Below, in pieces: positions 12,739 through 54,778 of a stretch of DNA of 64,000 nucleotides. The translations under genes were made by a program, and so were the position numbers. Under the pieces are notes generated by a model. That model did no database searches. It had not been told where the DNA came from and saw only the letters and a program-made list of their open reading frames with translations. The stretch's first letter is position 1, and the number at the start of each line of letters is the position of its first letter. The stretch is taken from IMG/VR virus record IMGVR_UViG_3300031951_000087, positions 21,006-85,005 of that record; one strand, written 5' to 3'. The stretch comes from a virus.

Positions 12739-14505
12739 TTGGAAAACCCCATAATTGAAAACTCAGGATTATTAGAACAAAAAGCCCTTAATACCCTACA
12801 TGATTATCAGGGTGCAAATAACTATATCCTAAAATTAAAAGGTATTTTCAACCCAAACAAACGTGGTATTCCAACAAGAAGTCAATGTGAATACATTTTA
12901 AACCACTCAAACACAACACCAAAAGTTGCAAAAAAATGGGTTGAATTGGATGATTATTTTTCTGAAAAAATATCAAACGAAAAATTATATACAGTTCCAC
13001 CAAAACAAGTGTGGATTGAAAAGTTATTAGTTGAAAAAGATAAGTCTTATCATATTTGGGGTCGTTTTTTTGATAGTGAACCTTTAACAGATTTTTGGTT
13101 ACCAAAGGCGGCAATCATTAAAAACCCTGAACAATACTATAAAGAAATTGATTATTCAAAGTATTCACATAGACCACTTCTTTCACACCAAGTTGAGGCG
13201 GTAGAAAAACTTGTAAAAACAAAAAGGTTTATTTTGGCTGATGATATGGGATTGGGTAAGACAACATCAACCATTGTGGCGGCGTTGGAAACTGAAGCCA
13301 AAAGAGTTTTAATTATTTGTCCTGCGTCATTAAAGATTAACTGGCAAAGAGAAATTGAAAATTACACAAAACGCTCAACATATATCTGCGGAAGTAAAAG
13401 ATATGAGGATGCTGATTTTGTAATTGTTAATTACGACATTCTAAAAAACTTTCACGACCCAAAAGATAGGGACAACTCTCGTGTTTTAAAAAGTAATTTT
13501 GATTTGGTTATTATTGATGAAGCACATTATATTCAAAATAAAACCGCACAAAGAACAAAATTAATCAACGACTTTGTGAAGGGGGTTGACAGATTGTGGT
13601 TGTTAACGGGTACACCAATGACATCACGACCAATGAATTATTTTAATTTGTTAGAACTTATTGAATCACCCGTTGCAGCAAATTGGATGGCATATGTTGT
13701 TAGATATTGTAATGGGTACCAATTCAAAGTTGGTAATAGAAAAGTTTGGAATGTTATGGGAGCTTCAAATTTAGAAGAGTTAAGAGACCGAACAACAAGA
13801 CAAGTATTAAGAAGATTAAAAACAGATGTATTAGATTTACCTGATAAAATTATCACCCCCGTTTATTTGAGATTAAAATCAAAAGAATATGAAGAATTAA
13901 TGGGTGAGTATTTTGATTGGTATGAAAAAAATACCGATGAGAGTTCATCATTAACCGTTCAATTTACCAAGTTAACAAAGGTACGTCAGGTAATTGCACA
14001 AGAAAAAATACGGTCAACCATTGAATTGGTTGAGAACATATTAGAACAAGATAAAAAAGTAATAGTTTTCACAAACTTTACCGATTCCCTAAATAAAATT
14101 TATGACCATTTCGGTAAACAAGCCGTTTACTTGGATGGTTCATGTTCACCAGCAAAAAGACAAAACGCTGTTGACGAATTTCAAAACAATGAAAAAATAA
14201 AAGTGTTTGTTGGTAACTTAAAAGCGGCGGGTGTTGGTATTACACTTACTGCCGCTGAGGCGGTTATTATGAATGATTTATCATTTGTTCCATCCGACCA
14301 CGCACAAGCTGAAGACCGAAGTTATAGATACGGACAAAAATCAAACGTATCGGTATATTATCCAATATTTGAAAATACTATTGAGGGTACAATTTATGAT
14401 ATTCTCAATAAAAAGAAAAATATTTTTGAAACCGTAATGGGTGATAACGTGGGCAGGGCAGAGATTGTACAAGAAATTATGAATCAAATTTTTGGTAAGA
14501 GGTAA
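12739..14505 (+). CDS. SNF2-family DNA helicase/ATPase
   Basis: 588 residues with a complete superfamily 2 core of SNF2 type: HQVEAVEKL (Q-like motif, about 150), ADDMGLGKT (motif I, 168-175), IICPASLKINW (Ia), DEAH (260-263), WLLTGTPM (III), then FTNFTDSL, AAGVGITLTAAE and AEDRSYRYGQ (IV-VI). The layout recalls the SMARCAL1/HARP branch, ATP-driven annealing or remodelling enzymes. In T4 a related task, branch migration and R-loop removal, is done by UvsW, so a replication/recombination role is likely. The start is TTG 12739 (MENPIIENSG); an in-frame TAA lies just upstream and no ATG is near. The gene separates the two halves of the neck module. Confidence 0.88.
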   Translation: MENPIIENSGLLEQKALNTLHDYQGANNYILKLKGIFNPNKRGIPTRSQCEYILNHSNTTPKVAKKWVELDDYFSEKISNEKLYTVPPKQVWIEKLLVEKDKSYHIWGRFFDSEPLTDFWLPKAAIIKNPEQYYKEIDYSKYSHRPLLSHQVEAVEKLVKTKRFILADDMGLGKTTSTIVAALETEAKRVLIICPASLKINWQREIENYTKRSTYICGSKRYEDADFVIVNYDILKNFHDPKDRDNSRVLKSNFDLVIIDEAHYIQNKTAQRTKLINDFVKGVDRLWLLTGTPMTSRPMNYFNLLELIESPVAANWMAYVVRYCNGYQFKVGNRKVWNVMGASNLEELRDRTTRQVLRRLKTDVLDLPDKIITPVYLRLKSKEYEELMGEYFDWYEKNTDESSSLTVQFTKLTKVRQVIAQEKIRSTIELVENILEQDKKVIVFTNFTDSLNKIYDHFGKQAVYLDGSCSPAKRQNAVDEFQNNEKIKVFVGNLKAAGVGITLTAAEAVIMNDLSFVPSDHAQAEDRSYRYGQKSNVSVYYPIFENTIEGTIYDILNKKKNIFETVMGDNVGRAEIVQEIMNQIFGKR

Positions 14506-14523
14506 GTTTTTTGAAAATCTATT

Positions 14524-14531
14524 TATTTATA
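14524..14531 (+). promoter_or_regulatory. TATTTATA element before dismutase fusion
   Basis: The plus strand reads TATTTATTTATAAGATAATG; the octamer ends 15 bases before ATG 14547. Confidence 0.5.
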
Positions 14532-14546
14532 AGATAATGATAGATT

Positions 14547-16109
14547 ATGAAATTTAAAAAATTAAAAGCCGAAATTGAAGAATTAGAAGACAAATTAACT
14601 ACCAACGAAGACCTACAAGAATCAATACAAAACGAACAAAAAGAGATTATTAATGAAATGAAAAAAATTGGGATTGAAAGATTACCATATTCATATTCAT
14701 CACTTGGTAGATTTATTGACCCAAAAACAATGAATGTTCATTACAACAAACATTATAAAGGGTATGTTGAAAAATTAAATGCGGCACTTGCAAATCTTAA
14801 AGGTGCCGATGCTGAACTTGAAGAAATTGTAAAAGGTATTTCAAGATATAACAAAACTGTTAAAAACAATGCGGGTGGTGCCTTTAACCACGCTTTGTTT
14901 TGGAAAATGTTATCGCCAAAGAAACAAACCATTAACGGTCCTGTAGAAGAAAAAATTAAAAAAGACTTTGGTTCTTACGAAGAATTCAAAAAACAATTCA
15001 CGGAAAAATCACAAAAGAATTTTGGTTCAGGATGGTGTTGGTTGGTAATTAATGGTCAAGGTAAATTAAAAATTGTTACGACATCAAACCAAGATAACCC
15101 ATTAATGAATACCGTCAAAGATGGTGGATATCCAATATTGGGTCTTGATTTGTGGGAACACGCATATTATTTAAGATACCAAAACAAAAAAGATGAATAT
15201 ATAGGAAAATTTTTCTCAGTTATTAATTGGGACTTTGTTAACACACTTCTTATATCTAAAAACGAAAAAAAACTTAACGAAGAAAAGTTAGCTGGTGAAT
15301 TACTTGTTGAAACAAGAGAAAGTATAGGTTGTTCAACAACAGAGGTTAAAGAAATAAACAAAATGTTTTCAATGAACACACAAGTAAAATATAAATTCAT
15401 GAATACAATCAACACAATCATGAAAGAAAAATTTTCAGAATATTGGTTTGAAAAAGACCAATATGAACCAGGTTCAATGTCAGGAATTTATAATTACGGA
15501 AAACCAGGTCGTTCAGTTATTAACAAATTAAATACAAATTACAGTTCGTTTTGTATTTTGATGAATGATTTAAATTTTTATTTAATTAAAAACAATATAA
15601 AACCTATATCATTTGGGGATAAAGATAAATTTGCACAAATTAAAGAAGTTGAAAGATTTACAAAATATCTTTATGATTTAAGAGACCGAATCTTTAACTT
15701 GTCAACATCTAAAACTTTTCAAAATATTGTACAGAAATTAGTACAAACCGATTCCAAAGGTGAGGAAAGAGAAGATATTACTGTTATAGCATTAAGAAAA
15801 ATATTTGGAACTGAAGACGTTCACAAAATTGGTGGATTGGGTTCTGAAGAAGATATGATTTCGGGTGTTGATGCGATTATTAATAAAGATGGTCAAAGAT
15901 TGACAGCACAAATTAAACCATTTAGTGGTGTAAAAGATTTTAATGATGATAGTGTTATGGTGTTCGGAGCGAGCGCACCAAAACAATATAAAACTGATTA
16001 TTTAGTTTTTAATAATAAAAACAAGACAGTCGTATTCAAAAATCAAAATACAAAAATTATTGATGGTAATTATGTATTTCCAAAATCAAACATATTTGGA
16101 GATATTTGA
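14547..16109 (+). CDS. Mn-type superoxide dismutase fused to nuclease-like domain
   Basis: 520 residues in three parts. Residues 1-45 form a charged coiled coil. Residues 46-235 are a complete Fe/Mn superoxide dismutase: LPYSYSSLGRFID, MNVHYNKHYKGYV (ligand His65; His69 and Tyr73 also conserved), NNAGGAFNHALFW (ligand His115), NFGSGWCWLV, and GLDLWEHAYY (ligands Asp201, His205). All four metal ligands are present. The Gly-rich NNAGG and the NQD at 181-183 are of the Mn type. Residues 240-520 are not dismutase; near the end, GVDAIINKDGQ plus AQIKPF (Asp442, Gln455, Lys457) suggests a PD-(D/E)XK nuclease core. The dismutase would detoxify superoxide; the role of the fusion is unknown. Neighbours are an SNF2 helicase and neck gp13. 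Confidence 0.82.
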   Translation: MKFKKLKAEIEELEDKLTTNEDLQESIQNEQKEIINEMKKIGIERLPYSYSSLGRFIDPKTMNVHYNKHYKGYVEKLNAALANLKGADAELEEIVKGISRYNKTVKNNAGGAFNHALFWKMLSPKKQTINGPVEEKIKKDFGSYEEFKKQFTEKSQKNFGSGWCWLVINGQGKLKIVTTSNQDNPLMNTVKDGGYPILGLDLWEHAYYLRYQNKKDEYIGKFFSVINWDFVNTLLISKNEKKLNEEKLAGELLVETRESIGCSTTEVKEINKMFSMNTQVKYKFMNTINTIMKEKFSEYWFEKDQYEPGSMSGIYNYGKPGRSVINKLNTNYSSFCILMNDLNFYLIKNNIKPISFGDKDKFAQIKEVERFTKYLYDLRDRIFNLSTSKTFQNIVQKLVQTDSKGEEREDITVIALRKIFGTEDVHKIGGLGSEEDMISGVDAIINKDGQRLTAQIKPFSGVKDFNDDSVMVFGASAPKQYKTDYLVFNNKNKTVVFKNQNTKIIDGNYVFPKSNIFGDI

Positions 16110-16117
16110 TATTTATA
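16110..16117 (+). promoter_or_regulatory. TATTTATA element before gp13
   Basis: It begins on the base after the dismutase-fusion stop and ends 6 bases before ATG 16124. It supports ATG 16124 over the in-frame start at 16106. Confidence 0.55.
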
Positions 16118-16123
16118 AAGAAG

Positions 16124-17239
16124 ATGGCAATTATTGTAGAACCAGAAAGAAGTAAACTCTATAGAAGAATTAAAGCCCTTCTTGGTGCACCTGTTAGAGG
16201 TGTTGAGTTAGAAGATGAGCAAATGGACTCATTATTAGAACTTGCGATTGGGGATTACGAACAATATATTTTAGATTGGTTAATTGAAGCACAATGGACT
16301 TCTTTATATGGACTGAACCTTGACGAACAGTCTTTAACAAGGGCACTTACCAAAAGAAGTTTAGATTGGGAAACACAATACACTTACGCATATTCAAAGA
16401 TAGTTGGATTACAAGCTGGTGGTGATTGGGTACTTAAAAAAGATTATGTTGATTTGGTTCCGAACCAACAAATTTATGAAATACCTAAGGGTCGTGAAAT
16501 TAATGAACTTTTATGGTTCATGAGAGCCGAATTAAACAATTCATTATTCGACCCATTTATGGGTGGATTTGGAGGATTTGGTGGAACTGGATTAGGTGGT
16601 CCTGGCGGATTTGCACAATTTGGTGCAAGTGGAAGTTATTTTATGATGCCAGCGTTTGACGTTGTGTTAAGAATGGCGGATAGAAATCTCAAACAAAGAA
16701 TGATTGTTGGTGATTTGACATATAGAATTACAGCATTGCCTGAAGGAAAAAAAGCATTACACTTATACAACACACCTGGTGGAAGATTTGATTTTTCAAA
16801 TATTGGATTTAACGAATATAGATGTTGGTATTGGTACTACGATACTGATGGTGACCGTGATGATTGTTTGGCTGCAAATCCTGACATTGTTAGATTACCA
16901 TCTGACATACCATTAGAAGCGTTAAATTGGCAGGACCTTAATACACCCGCACAACAATGGGTTAGAAGATGGTTTACCGCTTACTGTAAAGAAACATTAG
17001 GTCGTATTTATGGTAAATACAGTGGTAACCTTAAAACCCCTGACTCTGAACTAACATTGGACTACACATCTTTGTTAGGTGAGGCTAAAGATGAAAGAGC
17101 AAAACTTGAAGAAGAATTAAAATTACGTCTTGAAAGATTAAGTCCTGTTAAACAAATGGAAAAGGAAGCCTTAATTGCTGAAAACCTAAATAAACAATTA
17201 AAATATAGAGCGTTCCCAAGTCCCTATAATGTAATTTAA
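16124..17239 (+). CDS. gp13: Neck/head completion protein gp13
   Basis: 371 residues from ATG 16124 (MAIIVEPERSKLYRRIKALL). Helical N-terminal half with LLELAIGDYEQYILDWLIEAQW, a Gly/Phe-rich loop at about 155-180 (GGFGGFGGTGLGG), then WVRRWFTAYCKETLGRIYGK followed by LTLDYTSLLGEAKDE and an acidic helix (LEEELKLRLERL). The last part corresponds to the C-terminal pattern of T4 gp13 and its relatives, in which the chain ends with a Pro-rich tail (here FPSPYNVI). gp13 binds the portal vertex after packaging and recruits gp14. It is separated from the gp14-like gene, which lies on the other strand beyond the helicase and dismutase genes. Confidence 0.72.
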   Translation: MAIIVEPERSKLYRRIKALLGAPVRGVELEDEQMDSLLELAIGDYEQYILDWLIEAQWTSLYGLNLDEQSLTRALTKRSLDWETQYTYAYSKIVGLQAGGDWVLKKDYVDLVPNQQIYEIPKGREINELLWFMRAELNNSLFDPFMGGFGGFGGTGLGGPGGFAQFGASGSYFMMPAFDVVLRMADRNLKQRMIVGDLTYRITALPEGKKALHLYNTPGGRFDFSNIGFNEYRCWYWYYDTDGDRDDCLAANPDIVRLPSDIPLEALNWQDLNTPAQQWVRRWFTAYCKETLGRIYGKYSGNLKTPDSELTLDYTSLLGEAKDERAKLEEELKLRLERLSPVKQMEKEALIAENLNKQLKYRAFPSPYNVI

Positions 17240-20780: not shown

Positions 20781-23681
20781 TTATAAACCGTATTTTGATT
20801 TATCGGCATTAAAGTTTTGTAATACTTGTGTTGATGTTAATGATGTGTCGTACATTCTTATGACACCAATAGTTCCTTTGAACTTGTTTAGGGCTGAACT
20901 TCCGTCTGCAGTAACTCTACCAGCTATACTTACAAAATTTGTGTTACTTACTTGATTAACACCAGCTAAACTTATACTTCCCGCGGAAACACCGTTTCTA
21001 TAAACCGTGAGAGTCTTGGCAACACCAAAATTAAAGACAGCAACCGCTTGTACCCAAGTATTCACCGTAAATCCCGTCATAATAATATTAGGGTTGTTAG
21101 CCCCGTCGTAAGCTGCCACGAACATATTACTTGCACCTTCATTAAATCTAATTGTGTAAGGGTATCTAAGAGGTGAGAAGCTGGTATCCCATTTTTCCAA
21201 TAGTTCCGCTTCACCTGAGTTTGGTTGACCATTTGAAGGATTAAACCATATTTCAACCGTGTATTGTTCAGTATTTGTAAAGTTTGTAACACCATTAACA
21301 CTTGGGATTCTACCATAAGAAGAACTTCCATTGAAAGTAAAACCACTTAATGCGTTGTAAGTTGGACTACCCGATAAAGTTGCATCCGTACTACCCACAG
21401 TTGTGTCCCAAACAGTTCCTGAACCAACATAACTACTTGGTAATAACTGTAGTTGTAAGTTTGATGTTACAATATTAGGTGTTACTGATGGTGTTGGTGT
21501 CTGAGTATTAGTTGGTGTTATTGTATTTGTTGGGGTAACCGTAGGTGTTGATGTTGATGTAGGGGTGGGTGTTGGTTCAACAAATCTTGGAGACAAGAAA
21601 TTATACTGTTGTTGTATTTCAGAAAGTGACAACTGTCTATTGTAGAAATACATGTTGGCAACATACCCCCAAGGCTGAGGAACGACATCATTATTACCCC
21701 AACCCCAGTGTGTAGTTCCACCAGCACCAAAAGCAATTTGACTTCCAACTTCAGAACCATTTATGTAGAATTTTTGAGATGAATTTGTTCCAACAACCGC
21801 ATATTGAACCCAAACACTTGTTTCACCTGACAAGTCATACCCTGAACTTCTAAACGCACTGTCCCAATAACCCAATATATCGGAGTTATTTGGGATGGTA
21901 ATTGGAGTGTATTTAGGTGAGTTTGTATAAAGTAATGTTCTAAATGATGCAATATTATTTAATTCTAATCTTGCCCAAGTAATATATGTGTATCCTGAAT
22001 TTGGTAATAAAGGTCCTGTTGCGTTGTAATTAACTCTATTAGTCCCTGTAGTACAATCAAAACATTTTATACCGTTAAGAACTGTGTAAGTTGCACCGAT
22101 TAATGTGTGATTATACCCCCCTGTTATATCATAAACTGTTGTACCTGTTCCGGGATAGCTTGAACTTGTATGTGCGTCAAGTTGGATTACCAAACCATTT
22201 GTTACAAGATTTGGCGTTGGCGTAATTGTTGGTGTAACCGTTGGTGTTGATGTATTAGTCGGCGTAATTGTTGGTGTAACCGTTGGTGTTGATGTATTAG
22301 TTGGTGTTGGTGTTGGACAAATATAATTTGAGGATGTGTTAATATAGTTTGAATACGTTTGTCCACTTGTTAAGGATGTTGTATAAATTTCTAAACTACC
22401 AAGTCTGTAATCACCAAATCCTCCGTCACCCATATTTGTACCATCCTGATGTGCAAGTAAATAAAATAGTCCTGACCCGGCATTATAAGGGGCCAATCTA
22501 TTTAAGGTTATATTACCAGCACTTACACCATCAACATATGCGGTTAAAGTTGACCCATCATATGTCATACCAACATAATACCAATTATTAAGTGGTGTTG
22601 ATATAGATGAGGTAAAATTAATATTTCCTGTAGTAGTCCATAAACCAAACTTAAGTGTTCCCGAAACCATTTCAATTATAGATGTGTGCCATCCCGATAA
22701 AGAATTTACAACCCCCACTTCAGAAAGTATAACCCCATCACCTTGAGGATAAATCCACATAAATATTGAAGTCACTTCAGACTTGTTTGGAGAAACACCA
22801 GAAAACAATGAACTTAAATTAGTGTTGGTATAGATATACTGTGAAGTACCATTGAAATCTACGAAAGTTCCACATCCTGTACTACCACTTGAAGGAGAAT
22901 TCACAATAGTACCATTACTATTATTTTCTAAATCAAATACGGTTGTAGTTCCTGAATATGAATTACTATCACTAAAATCGTAATATAGTATTCTACTACT
23001 CAACACATTTGTTGGTGTTACAGTGGAAGTTGGTGTTGGGGTTGGTGTGGAATTACTCGATGTCGGCGTAATGGTTGGTGTAATAGTTGGCGTAACTGTT
23101 GGAGTCTCCGTTGAAGTTGCTGTTGGTGTCTGAGTAGGAGTTTCGGTATTGGTAGGAGTTGGTGTTTGGGTAGGAGTTTCGGTATTGGTAGGAGTTGGCG
23201 TTTGGGTAGGAGTCTCGGTGTTAGTTGGTGTTGGTGTTTGGGTAGGAGTTTTGGTATTGGTAGGAGTTGGCGTTTGGGTAGGAGTCTCGGTGTTAGTTGG
23301 TGTTGGTGTCTGAGTTGGTGTTTCGGTATTGGTAGGAGTTGGCGTTTGGGTAGGAGTCTCGGTGTTAGTTGGTGTTGGTGTCTGAGTTGGTGTTTCGGTA
23401 TTGGTAGGTGTAACCGTATTTGTTGGTGTTGGCGTTACGGTGCTAGTTGGTGTTGGTGATGGATTTGGTGTTGTAATATCAATTACAAATGTTTGGTCGG
23501 TACCTGAAAAATATATAAACACTTTACCTTGTGGTGTACCATCGGCAGGAAAATAATCAAAAGGGATAGTTTCTACTCCCAACTCAAAAGTTTCATTTAA
23601 TGTTGTATCCAAAAAGGTAACCAAACATGTTTGACCACTATATTCAGTACTTTCAACTCTAAATCCGTAATTATTTGACAT
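20781..23681 (-). CDS. Adhesin-type tail fibre with Thr/Pro linkers and LamG-like domains
   Basis: 966 residues. Residues 1-70 form a small beta domain. Residues about 71-225 are almost pure Thr/Pro with a 12-residue unit [12 protein letters not shown]. Then come three lectin-like (LamG/concanavalin-type) modules at roughly 231-455, 490-700 and 745-966, each with a YDFSDSNS- or [10 protein letters not shown]-type opening strand and a VYxNGV or FYINGS motif, separated by shorter Thr/Pro linkers ([14 protein letters not shown]). The architecture suits an extended host-binding fibre carrying carbohydrate-binding tips on a mucin-like stalk. The Thr-rich stalk is a possible O-glycosylation substrate for the glycosyltransferases encoded nearby. 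The gene shares its first bases with the stop of the upstream fibre gene. Confidence 0.8.
23094..23411 (-). repeat. 36-bp coding minisatellite (about 9 units)
   Basis: Tandem units of 36 bases encode [12 protein letters not shown] in the fibre protein. There is a leading partial unit, seven near-identical units (one with Lys for Glu) and a degenerate last unit. Synonymous differences group the copies into two alternating types, suggesting expansion by pairs of units. Such arrays can change length by slippage or recombination. Confidence 0.85.
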
Positions 23682-50608: not shown

Positions 50609-52405
50609 TTATCTCAATTCTCTTAAGTCAAATGTTCTAACACCATCAACTGTGATTTTACCGTAGAAACGGTTGTTCACCATCTTCTTAGCGTATCTTG
50701 TCATGATACCTTTGATAGGTGTGAAGTTGAATGGGTTATACATTGTTGGAGTCAATTGTAATGGTACGTATGGTGCGTACACATAACCTGTGTCTAACAA
50801 TGAGTTACCTTTATGACCAATCAACACTGTGTTTGGTGGAAAATAAGGGTCTCTGTAAACTTGGTATCTACCAGCCAAAGTTCCAACTCTTTCAATACCC
50901 ATGTTATATTGGTCTTGCTCAGGAGCTGCGTTTGATACGTGGAAGTATTCCAAATCATCAAAGATTGCACTGATTTCAGAAGAAACAACAATCCAGTTAG
51001 CTCCACCTCTCAATGTTGATTTGTGGATTTGAGCTGAAAGTTGGTTGATTGCTGTAATCAATGTTTGGTTCCAATCTTTTTGTGTGTATTGTGTTAATGG
51101 ATTTGCAGTTGTACCTCTCTTCCAACCGTTGTAATCCCATCTCAAAGTCCATGCTGCACCTTTTCTCAAATCTCTCAAGATTTCTCTATCAATTTCTGCC
51201 GCAACTTGCTCAGACAATAAAGCTGTTAATTCAGCTTCAGCGTCAATGTTGTGGAATGCTGCAACGTCTTGTGCTAATTCAGGAGACCATTGTGCTCTCA
51301 ATTTTCTTTCAGTTACAGAAACTGTTACTGATTCCAAATCAAAAGAAACTTCACCGATTTCATCTTCAAATTCTAAGTTTTGATAAACTCTATATGTACA
51401 TTTGAATGCTTGATTATATGCGGTTGTTACAGATGTTGTAACACCTGAGTAACCATCTAAAGAATCAGCACCGATTGAACAAGGAACTTGAGTATCCACC
51501 TCTAAGTAAATAATACCAAGAGCATCACAGATATTGTCATAAGAACCTCCATTACCTGTACTTGGGAATGATGTTGTTGCTTGTGAACCATATTGTACAA
51601 TACCTTTACCGTATTTTTGAGTTACAACTCTAAATAATTGGTTACCAGACAATCCTGAAAAACCATTTGAAGTAGCATCTGTAATTGGTGTTACAGATAA
51701 GCTAGACAAAAACTCTTCAGAATCCATTTCGTTACCGTTAGGACCAATTAATTTACCAGCACCAGCTGTGTTAAATCCTGATAAAGCAATAATAACTTTT
51801 CTGTATTCACCAGCACTGTAACCACTTTGGATTAATTCTGAACCACTCCAAACTTGTGTAGACGCTGTGTATGTTTCAGCACTAAACTTACCTTTAGAAT
51901 AGTCAAATAACCCTGGAGGGTCTAATGATGCTTCGTTACCTTCGTAGAATCTGTCATACAAATTCTTATCGTTTGCGCCATAACCAGCATTTGTTGATGA
52001 TGGTCCATTAGGTGCTCCAAAAGGTGCGAAGTGTGTACCACCTTCAGTTGGGTCTTGACCCATGTCATAACCCTGAATTTTAGGTACGAAGTAGAACAAT
52101 TTACCGATAGGTAAGTTCATAGCTTGTACAGATACGATGTCGTTAGCCAACAATTTAGAGAAAACTCTTCTTACGATTGGAAATACAACCGTTTCGAAAG
52201 AACCGTCTGATGCTGTGCTAGCAGCTTCGTTAATTAAGTGAGATGCTTGGTTTTCATAAAGTTGAGCGATGTTTTCTTTAACATGTCCTCTCAAACCTTC
52301 CAAGAATCCTAATTTGTCCCATTTGTTAATAGTATCTTCTTTGATAACTTTAAGGTGCTTAAGACCGATGTTACCAACAAGACCTGATTCTAATAATGCT
52401 CCCAT
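50609..52405 (-). CDS. gp23: Major capsid protein gp23
   Basis: 598 residues. The N-terminus MGALLESGLVGNIGLKHLKV, then WDKLGFLEGLRGHVKENIAQ and FPIVRRVFSKLLANDIVSVQ with PxGKLFY, is the gp23 family. The later FEDEIGEVSFDLESVTVS and the RLRAQWSPELAQDVAAFHNI segment are conserved core parts. Hexamers make the shell. The prohead protease gp21 cuts gp23 after (L/I)-x-E; LINE|A at residues 57-61 fits that rule (T4 cuts after residue 65). It is downstream of gp22, closed by a strong hairpin. The gap before it has no exact TATTTATN copy. Confidence 0.95.
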   Translation of the reverse strand: MGALLESGLVGNIGLKHLKVIKEDTINKWDKLGFLEGLRGHVKENIAQLYENQASHLINEAASTASDGSFETVVFPIVRRVFSKLLANDIVSVQAMNLPIGKLFYFVPKIQGYDMGQDPTEGGTHFAPFGAPNGPSSTNAGYGANDKNLYDRFYEGNEASLDPPGLFDYSKGKFSAETYTASTQVWSGSELIQSGYSAGEYRKVIIALSGFNTAGAGKLIGPNGNEMDSEEFLSSLSVTPITDATSNGFSGLSGNQLFRVVTQKYGKGIVQYGSQATTSFPSTGNGGSYDNICDALGIIYLEVDTQVPCSIGADSLDGYSGVTTSVTTAYNQAFKCTYRVYQNLEFEDEIGEVSFDLESVTVSVTERKLRAQWSPELAQDVAAFHNIDAEAELTALLSEQVAAEIDREILRDLRKGAAWTLRWDYNGWKRGTTANPLTQYTQKDWNQTLITAINQLSAQIHKSTLRGGANWIVVSSEISAIFDDLEYFHVSNAAPEQDQYNMGIERVGTLAGRYQVYRDPYFPPNTVLIGHKGNSLLDTGYVYAPYVPLQLTPTMYNPFNFTPIKGIMTRYAKKMVNNRFYGKITVDGVRTFDLRELR

Positions 52406-54055: not shown

Positions 54056-54778
54056 TTATCTATATCCCAAAAAATCGTTCAATTTTCCCATTAAGTCAAG
54101 CGATTTACCTAAACCACCATCAATTCTTCCATCTTCTTTTGATTTTTTTTCTTCTTCAAGATTTTCATCGTATTTGTGACGGTCATCCTTATTAAGGAAT
54201 AGATAAGCGCCGGGTGTAGATGGATTCATAACCAAGTCAAAACAAATCATTTCATAATCATTTTGAACTTCATTGTGTTCTCCCTTTTTAGCTAAAGAAC
54301 CTACACCACGTGAAGATACCCCCATCGTAACACCTTGTCTCATTAAGTTTGCCGCTACATCACCCTTAGATGATACAATACCTCTTTCATGGAAACCTGG
54401 TGTTGTTAATAACCTTAGTTTACCCATAAGAACGTTATCATCCCACCATATATCATCAATAATGTGTGATACTCTGTCTAAATCAATCAAAGATGATTCA
54501 GGGTGATTAAGTTCTGATGTTGCCAAACCTTTAGATATTGTTTGTTTATATTTTTCAGCTTCTCTTTTAAGAATATTTTCAGGATATACACGACCATTTC
54601 TATTAGGTGTACCATACTTTTGTAGAGTTGCGTAAAATACAAATGGTTTAGAGTGGTCTAATTGTGATTTTTGTTCATTAACTAAATCAGTATCTACGGC
54701 ATTTTTCATAGATATATGACCTGCATCATATTCTATCAATATTCCTTTACCTATTTCATTCGGTTTAAGTATCTTCAT
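54056..54778 (-). CDS. gp21: Prohead protease gp21
   Basis: 240 residues. NGRVYP (61-66), ELNHPES (His92) and GVSSRGVGSL (Ser155/156) are the signature motifs of the gp21-type (family U9/S80-like) serine protease. It cuts scaffold gp22 and capsid gp23 during head maturation. T4 gp21 is about 212 residues. The C-terminus is charged and likely removed by self-cleavage. It lies upstream of the scaffold gp22 in T4 order. The start ATG 54778 has the TATTTATT element 15 bases upstream. Confidence 0.9.
   Translation of the reverse strand: MKILKPNEIGKGILIEYDAGHISMKNAVDTDLVNEQKSQLDHSKPFVFYATLQKYGTPNRNGRVYPENILKREAEKYKQTISKGLATSELNHPESSLIDLDRVSHIIDDIWWDDNVLMGKLRLLTTPGFHERGIVSSKGDVAANLMRQGVTMGVSSRGVGSLAKKGEHNEVQNDYEMICFDLVMNPSTPGAYLFLNKDDRHKYDENLEEEKKSKEDGRIDGGLGKSLDLMGKLNDFLGYR

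Follow-up and report, generated by a model that had tools for sequence, protein, structure and literature searches.

Why a phage should carry a superoxide dismutase (SOD) and a nuclease in a single protein is the question raised by one gene in the window, the whole stretch of DNA analysed here, which comprises 64,000 nt of the 85,005-base virus record IMGVR_UViG_3300031951_000087. The original prediction had placed the gene next to an SNF2 helicase and a neck gene, and both neighbours were recovered by family searches (Pfam SNF2-rel_dom and phrog_211, respectively). The locus is made up as follows:

12739 to 14505, plus strand: helicase of the SNF2 type, bordering the slot upstream (Pfam SNF2-rel_dom, 5.6e-29)
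14547 to 16109, plus strand: SOD-nuclease fusion gene, 520 amino acids, a single unbroken open reading frame
16124 to 17239, plus strand: neck/head-tail adaptor, downstream border of the slot (phrog_211); listed from TTG at 16106, with ATG at 16124 the likelier start

Full-length relatives of the 520-amino-acid fusion were found in public viral contigs at 44–100% identity, with 174 related stretches in one viral-contig scan; a profile scan raised the number to at least 454. A survey for the fusion in relatives had been proposed. In a nuclease-anchored set of 316 loci, drawn from public viral contigs chiefly through their similarity to the nuclease, the fused frame was open in 247, so the fusion is no assembly error. 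Sixty-six further loci carried the nuclease without SOD, and two had the parts in separate frames, one (L012) through a frameshift and the other (L188) as a split gene with a stop between the SOD and nuclease parts. Such a stop had been named beforehand as a result that would count against the fusion; it does occur in that locus, yet it leaves the fusion in the window unaffected, and it fits modular cargo. Both catalytic domains are under strong purifying selection, with dN/dS values against close relatives of 0.02–0.09 in the SOD and nuclease domains alike. PHROGs held no family for the 520-amino-acid fusion, no cellular homologue was found in a GTDB genome scan, and a literature search of open-licence papers returned no paper describing such a fusion. 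The family is nevertheless already in databases, contrary to the initial view that no such fusion was known: UniProt A0A6J5L953, a 501-amino-acid protein of an uncultured Caudovirales phage, has the same architecture and is 47% identical to the window fusion over 487 alignment columns, its title ('superoxide dismutase') mentioning SOD only. Together with A0A8D9CCA0, it was one of two distant full relatives in the viral fold library BFVD.

The SOD part was matched by Sod_Fe_N at residues 44–123 (Pfam 6.9e-21) and by Sod_Fe_C at residues 131–232 (Pfam 1.7e-39), and its best PDB relative was S. aureus SodA (5n56, 1.3e-58):

14658 to 15281, plus strand: Fe/Mn-type SOD, residues 38–245, proposed mature chain ending L243-N-E245

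The metal ligands His65, His115, Asp201 and His205, together with Gln182, lie at the positions originally given, and all five were invariant in 140 of 140 distinct fusions; G199 was kept in 133 and L200 in 136 of these, and most second-sphere residues were also invariant. The dismutase had been thought to look active, a view supported by the kept catalytic residues. By published criteria for manganese preference in SodFM1 enzymes (a C-terminal Gln and Gly at D-2; PMC10172142, PMC7264356), Q182, G199 and L200 accompany that preference, and an active, Mn-preferring enzyme of the SodFM1 type is thus to be expected. S. aureus SodA-like SodFM1 enzymes share the ligands, the C-terminal Gln and the Gly-Leu preceding the Asp ligand, whereas these cellular enzymes are without the leader and nuclease of the phage fusion. 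Stand-alone phage SODs (Vibrio phage 2.275.O and Pseudomonas PA5oct-like phages) are likewise of the Fe/Mn type at about 27% identity, and nothing in them matches the nuclease part.

Past residue 236, Pfam and PDB-HMM searches with the sequence yielded nothing significant, only weak and unrelated matches, and 50,697 phage records contained no match to this region; the C-terminal part was placed solely by its structure model. It divides into two sections:

15312 to 15698, plus strand: helical part with a GRSxxNxxNTN motif, of no known family (residues 256–384, from conserved columns)
15699 to 16106, plus strand: PD-(D/E)XK nuclease core with E409, D442, Q455 and K457 (residues 385–520, from the fold search)

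The AlphaFold model of residues 257–520, built from 46 sequences, reached a pLDDT of 91 and a pTM of 0.80. Structure prediction followed by a fold search had been suggested as one way to check the C-terminal part, and it returned a PD-(D/E)XK fold: the top 16 Foldseek matches in the PDB were all PD-(D/E)XK enzymes, among them I-Ssp6803I and archaeal Hjc-type resolvases, with probabilities of 0.69–1.00 and E-values of only 0.01–0.37, and a BFVD search added further annotated PD(D/E)XK and resolvase entries. The catalytic residues sit on the expected helix and strands of the model. The D-x(12)-Q-x-K pattern recognized at the outset corresponds to D442, Q455 and K457, which together with E409 were invariant in 168 of 168 distinct proteins (140 fusions and 28 SOD-less proteins); the conservation of the catalytic residues of SOD and nuclease far exceeds chance. 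Fold and motif together support the assignment of residues ~385–520 to the PD-(D/E)XK superfamily, the same fold by model comparison as Hjc resolvases and I-Ssp6803I, although no sequence similarity to these was detected and the phage protein has the extra GRSxxNxxNTN helical part. In BFVD, part of A0A8D9CCA0, an uncharacterised marine phage protein of 1113 amino acids, matched the nuclease model with a TM-score of 0.80 and 24% identity.

The gene occupies a conserved slot. Among loci chosen by their nuclease and having enough flanking sequence, SNF2 lay upstream in 151 of 151 and the neck gene downstream in 135 of 135. Because these loci had been chosen by nuclease, the neck gene was then taken as bait, yielding 160 neck-anchored loci: 79 with SOD fused to the nuclease (NucA), including nine loci whose single 520-amino-acid open reading frames had first been tagged as separate; 53 with SOD without NucA; 22 with NucA without SOD; one with separate SOD and nuclease genes (L468); and five with neither, including L428, which has two NucB genes and no SOD. 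In four neck-anchored loci the gap held neither SOD nor nuclease, and nuclease types were exchanged between loci. The SODs without NucA were bare, preceded by an N-terminal HExxH peptidase-like domain, or followed by C-terminal NucB, NucC or NucD:

NucB loci: L437, L448, L452, L462, L429, L450, L434, L131 (8859–9938) and L428
NucC loci: L437, L476, L465 and L422
NucD loci: L426, L427, L444, L458 and L475
HExxH-SOD loci: L380, L385, L387, L398, L426, L440, L453, L461 and L476

NucB, a second nuclease-like family, is a remote NucA relative (hhalign probability 98.3, E 1.8e-14) with E, G-x-D and Q-x-K invariant in 10 sequences; some of its members are joined to SOD, while others are encoded by genes of their own. 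NucC gave no hhalign match to NucA, and NucC and NucD, having no family match, are nuclease-like by motif only. The domain N-terminal to SOD has an invariant HEWxH followed by GGxxE, with weak SprT-like and DUF6055 matches. A scheme in which the nuclease is the core and SOD dispensable was rejected, as it reflected the sampling bias of the nuclease-anchored set, SOD without NucA being also common among neck-anchored loci. In L210–L218 a deletion is directly visible, the leader and first SOD residues being joined straight to the nuclease, and the long SOD-less records (152–318 kb) were free of any other SOD. A polB tree with an extremely distant outgroup nests the SOD-less forms inside the fusions, which in general may reflect either gain or loss. 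Two individual loci showed further insertions: an HNH-like endonuclease gene, recognized by eye, lies between SNF2 and the nuclease gene in L131 (7289–7948), and an apparent intein (VDEC...SNCHY) interrupts the SNF2 helicase gene in frame in L188 (2279–5125).

The boundaries between the domains carry a recurrent [ILV]xE motif. T4 gp21 cuts after L/I-X-E, and T4 internal proteins have targeting propeptides of 10–19 residues (PMC9026906). The elements concerned are:

14547 to 14657, plus strand: helical leader with I35-N-E37 at its end, a propeptide proposed to target the capsid (residues 1–37)
15282 to 15311, plus strand: linker, proposed excised spacer ending V254-E255 (residues 246–255)
50609 to 52405, minus strand: major capsid protein with LINE/A (predicted cut before A) at residue 60 (phrog_138, 7.3e-68)
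54056 to 54778, minus strand: head maturation protease of the T4 gp21 type, proposed to carry out the processing (phrog_207, 1.2e-42)

Among 70 non-redundant fusions, [ILV]xE was present at both E245 and E255 in all 70 and within residues 28–42 in all 70, with [ILVM]xE exactly at E37 in 61. Against a background of 2.2% per residue, only four of the 520 columns had [ILV]xE in at least 85% of the 70 fusions, namely E37, E204, E245 and E255; E204 is a structural SOD residue neighbouring the active site, whereas the other three mark domain boundaries. The N-terminal 39 residues are predicted, with low confidence, to be helical. Linker residues 241–256 have a pLDDT below 50 and are predicted to be disordered, which makes a folding reason for the conservation of the motif at E245 and E255 unlikely. 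In the neck-anchored proteins [ILV]xE was found in 68 of 68 linkers, also where other domains follow, mostly 11 and 21 residues past SOD, and [ILV]xE-x-[KR] stood directly N-terminal to SOD in 85 of 95, some of the other ten perhaps having mis-assigned starts. A site also preceded the nuclease in 24 of the 28 SOD-less proteins, as compared with 24% of random 16-mers from the same proteins. Peptidase_S77 was detected in 9 of 12 records (that of the window and eight relatives), while no gp21-type protease was found in the other three, possibly fragments. The capsid protein carried LINE/A at the gp23-type processing site in 7 of 7 genomes. Portal and terminase proteins are also encoded in the window, and on its minus strand 20781 to 23681 encodes a 966-amino-acid protein in which long repeats alternate with seemingly lectin-like domains.

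The fusion gene shares an upstream motif with structural genes:

14520 to 14533, plus strand: promoter-like motif TATTTATTTATAAG upstream of the fusion gene, function presumed

The sequence TATTTATA occurs in sense upstream of many window genes, for example at 14524–14531 and 16110–16117, and is the reverse complement of TATAAATA, the T4 late promoter consensus. In sense, TATTTAT preceded the fusion gene in 67 of 80 relatives, the neck gene in 87 of 88 and the sheath gene in 81 of 81, and only rarely SNF2 (6 of 55) or g111 (0 of 83). Within the window it was enriched, being found in 15 of 49 upstream regions against ~0.9 expected. Mononucleotide shuffles were the sole control for the upstream motif, and the loci compared are related to one another. 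The distribution of TATTTAT suggests that the fusion gene may be co-expressed with structural genes.

The junction motifs shared across unrelated domains, the protease, a capsid protein of the processed type and the modular slot together point to the fusion being a capsid-packaged polyprotein from which SOD and nuclease are released as separate chains, both injected; we assign this a probability of about 0.63. The helical leader would steer the precursor into the prohead, and the phage's gp21-type protease is predicted to cut exactly after residues 37 (I-N-E37), 245 (L-N-E245) and 255 (L-V-E255), releasing an Mn-type SOD of canonical length (38–245), a ten-residue spacer and the PD-(D/E)XK nuclease (256–520). 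SOD and nuclease would then enter the next host along with the phage DNA, where SOD would remove superoxide and the nuclease would cut DNA, perhaps host, rival or branched DNA. That the SOD-nuclease protein is packaged, cleaved and injected is a prediction, as are the activities of its two enzymes and what they act on; the leader's role in capsid targeting is likewise proposed. Several observations weigh against capsid cargo: [ILV]xE is short, and E204 shows that it can be invariant for structural reasons; the exact leader site is absent in 9 of 70 fusions and in 10 of 95 neck-anchored SODs, 4 of 28 SOD-less nucleases are without a site, and the protease was not found in 3 of 12 records. A packaged nuclease must, moreover, be restrained from cutting the packaged genome; T4-packaged staphylococcal nuclease cut DNA once calcium was added (PMC3012670), an example indicating that a nuclease can travel with DNA if kept inactive. 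Of the two explanations first offered, the packaged protein is favoured on new grounds: the prohead-protease-type motifs, the gp21-type protease and an upstream motif shared with structural genes. It is possible that SOD shields packaged DNA from superoxide, and delivery into the host fits equally. With somewhat less assurance, we lean towards the broader view that a group of T4-like environmental phages keeps a modular slot between the helicase and neck genes, delivering protease-split enzyme polyproteins (SOD, several nuclease types and a peptidase-like domain) via the capsid, so that the host would receive detoxifying and DNA-cutting activities along with the genome.

It is also conceivable, if unlikely, that the fusion remains uncut inside the infected cell, with a Holliday-junction-type nuclease acting late in replication or packaging and SOD protecting the DNA or the enzyme. 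The fold is nearest to Hjc resolvases and I-Ssp6803I, the gene adjoins the SNF2 helicase and the neck gene behind a late-type upstream motif, and RuvC, RusA and Hjc families were not found elsewhere in 12 long relatives (the Hjc model PF01870 matched 0 of 12 genomes, that of the window included, its control being positive in 4; Endonuclease_7 was likewise not found, in a search without a positive control). Despite the absence of a PF01870 match, the nuclease may still work like an Hjc resolvase. Nuclease and SOD are, however, each found without the other, and an intact fusion leaves unexplained the two invariant linker [ILV]xE sites, which are kept with other domains as well. Those protease-type motifs are equally unaccounted for if homing-type endonucleases colonise the SNF2-neck gap and were joined by chance to a resident SOD gene, a scenario we consider improbable even though the homing endonuclease I-Ssp6803I is the single best PDB match and the gap holds several nuclease types and one HNH gene in a patchy distribution. 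The catalytic residues are invariant over deep divergence under strong purifying selection, and no instance was observed of the mobility by which homing is defined.

Two further proposals would give SOD a role in the nuclease itself. As a catalytically idle scaffold, SOD might dimerise the nuclease, and Hjc-type nucleases do act as dimers. The related SodFM1 enzymes, too, are homodimeric (PMC10172142), but a scaffold would have no need of the metal ligands and second-sphere residues, all of the former and most of the latter being retained in 140 of 140 fusions, and with SOD also occurring alone and the nuclease also without SOD, we regard this as very improbable. Least probable of all is the redox-controlled nuclease originally entertained, in which SOD would be a superoxide or peroxide sensor that turns the activity of the nuclease on or off: only the covalent joining of the two in the precursor speaks for it, whereas the same nuclease active site occurs in SOD-less proteins (66 nuclease-anchored loci), SOD is joined to other domains or stands without NucA in 53 of the 160 neck-anchored loci, and the flexible linker carries cut sites.

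The reading as injected capsid cargo has its closest counterpart in T4. The internal proteins of T4 are diverse cargo that shares a targeting sequence and acts against host defences (PMC3012670); like the fusion, IPI, IPII, IPIII and Alt have an N-terminal leader ending L/I-x-E and a gp21-type protease in the genome, and, like the slot proteins, they represent varied cargo behind one delivery signal. They differ in that the fusion links two enzymes in one chain, with proposed cut sites inside it, and that packaging is here predicted. We know of no T4 internal protein that is a SOD or a PD-(D/E)XK nuclease. Among other viruses, the chlorovirus PBCV-1 encodes a Cu/Zn SOD (A245R), the product of a late gene, which is packaged in the virion and associated with lower superoxide in infected cells (PMC7019647); A245R and the phage SOD are both virus-encoded, whereas the former has an unrelated Cu/Zn fold, belongs to an algal virus and has no nuclease.

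What appears to be new here among head-delivered proteins is the proposed enzyme polyprotein as cargo. Where a phage genome fuses a SOD to another domain, the two may simply be packaged together, without their functions being coupled, and an [ILV]xE motif at the places where domains meet could serve to find injected proteins. T4 provides the best-known examples of injected head proteins, directed there against the defences of the host; if the reading proposed here is true, the injection principle would extend to multi-enzyme cargo in an abundant group of environmental phages, and phages would bring with them, as they enter the cell, their own means of controlling superoxide.
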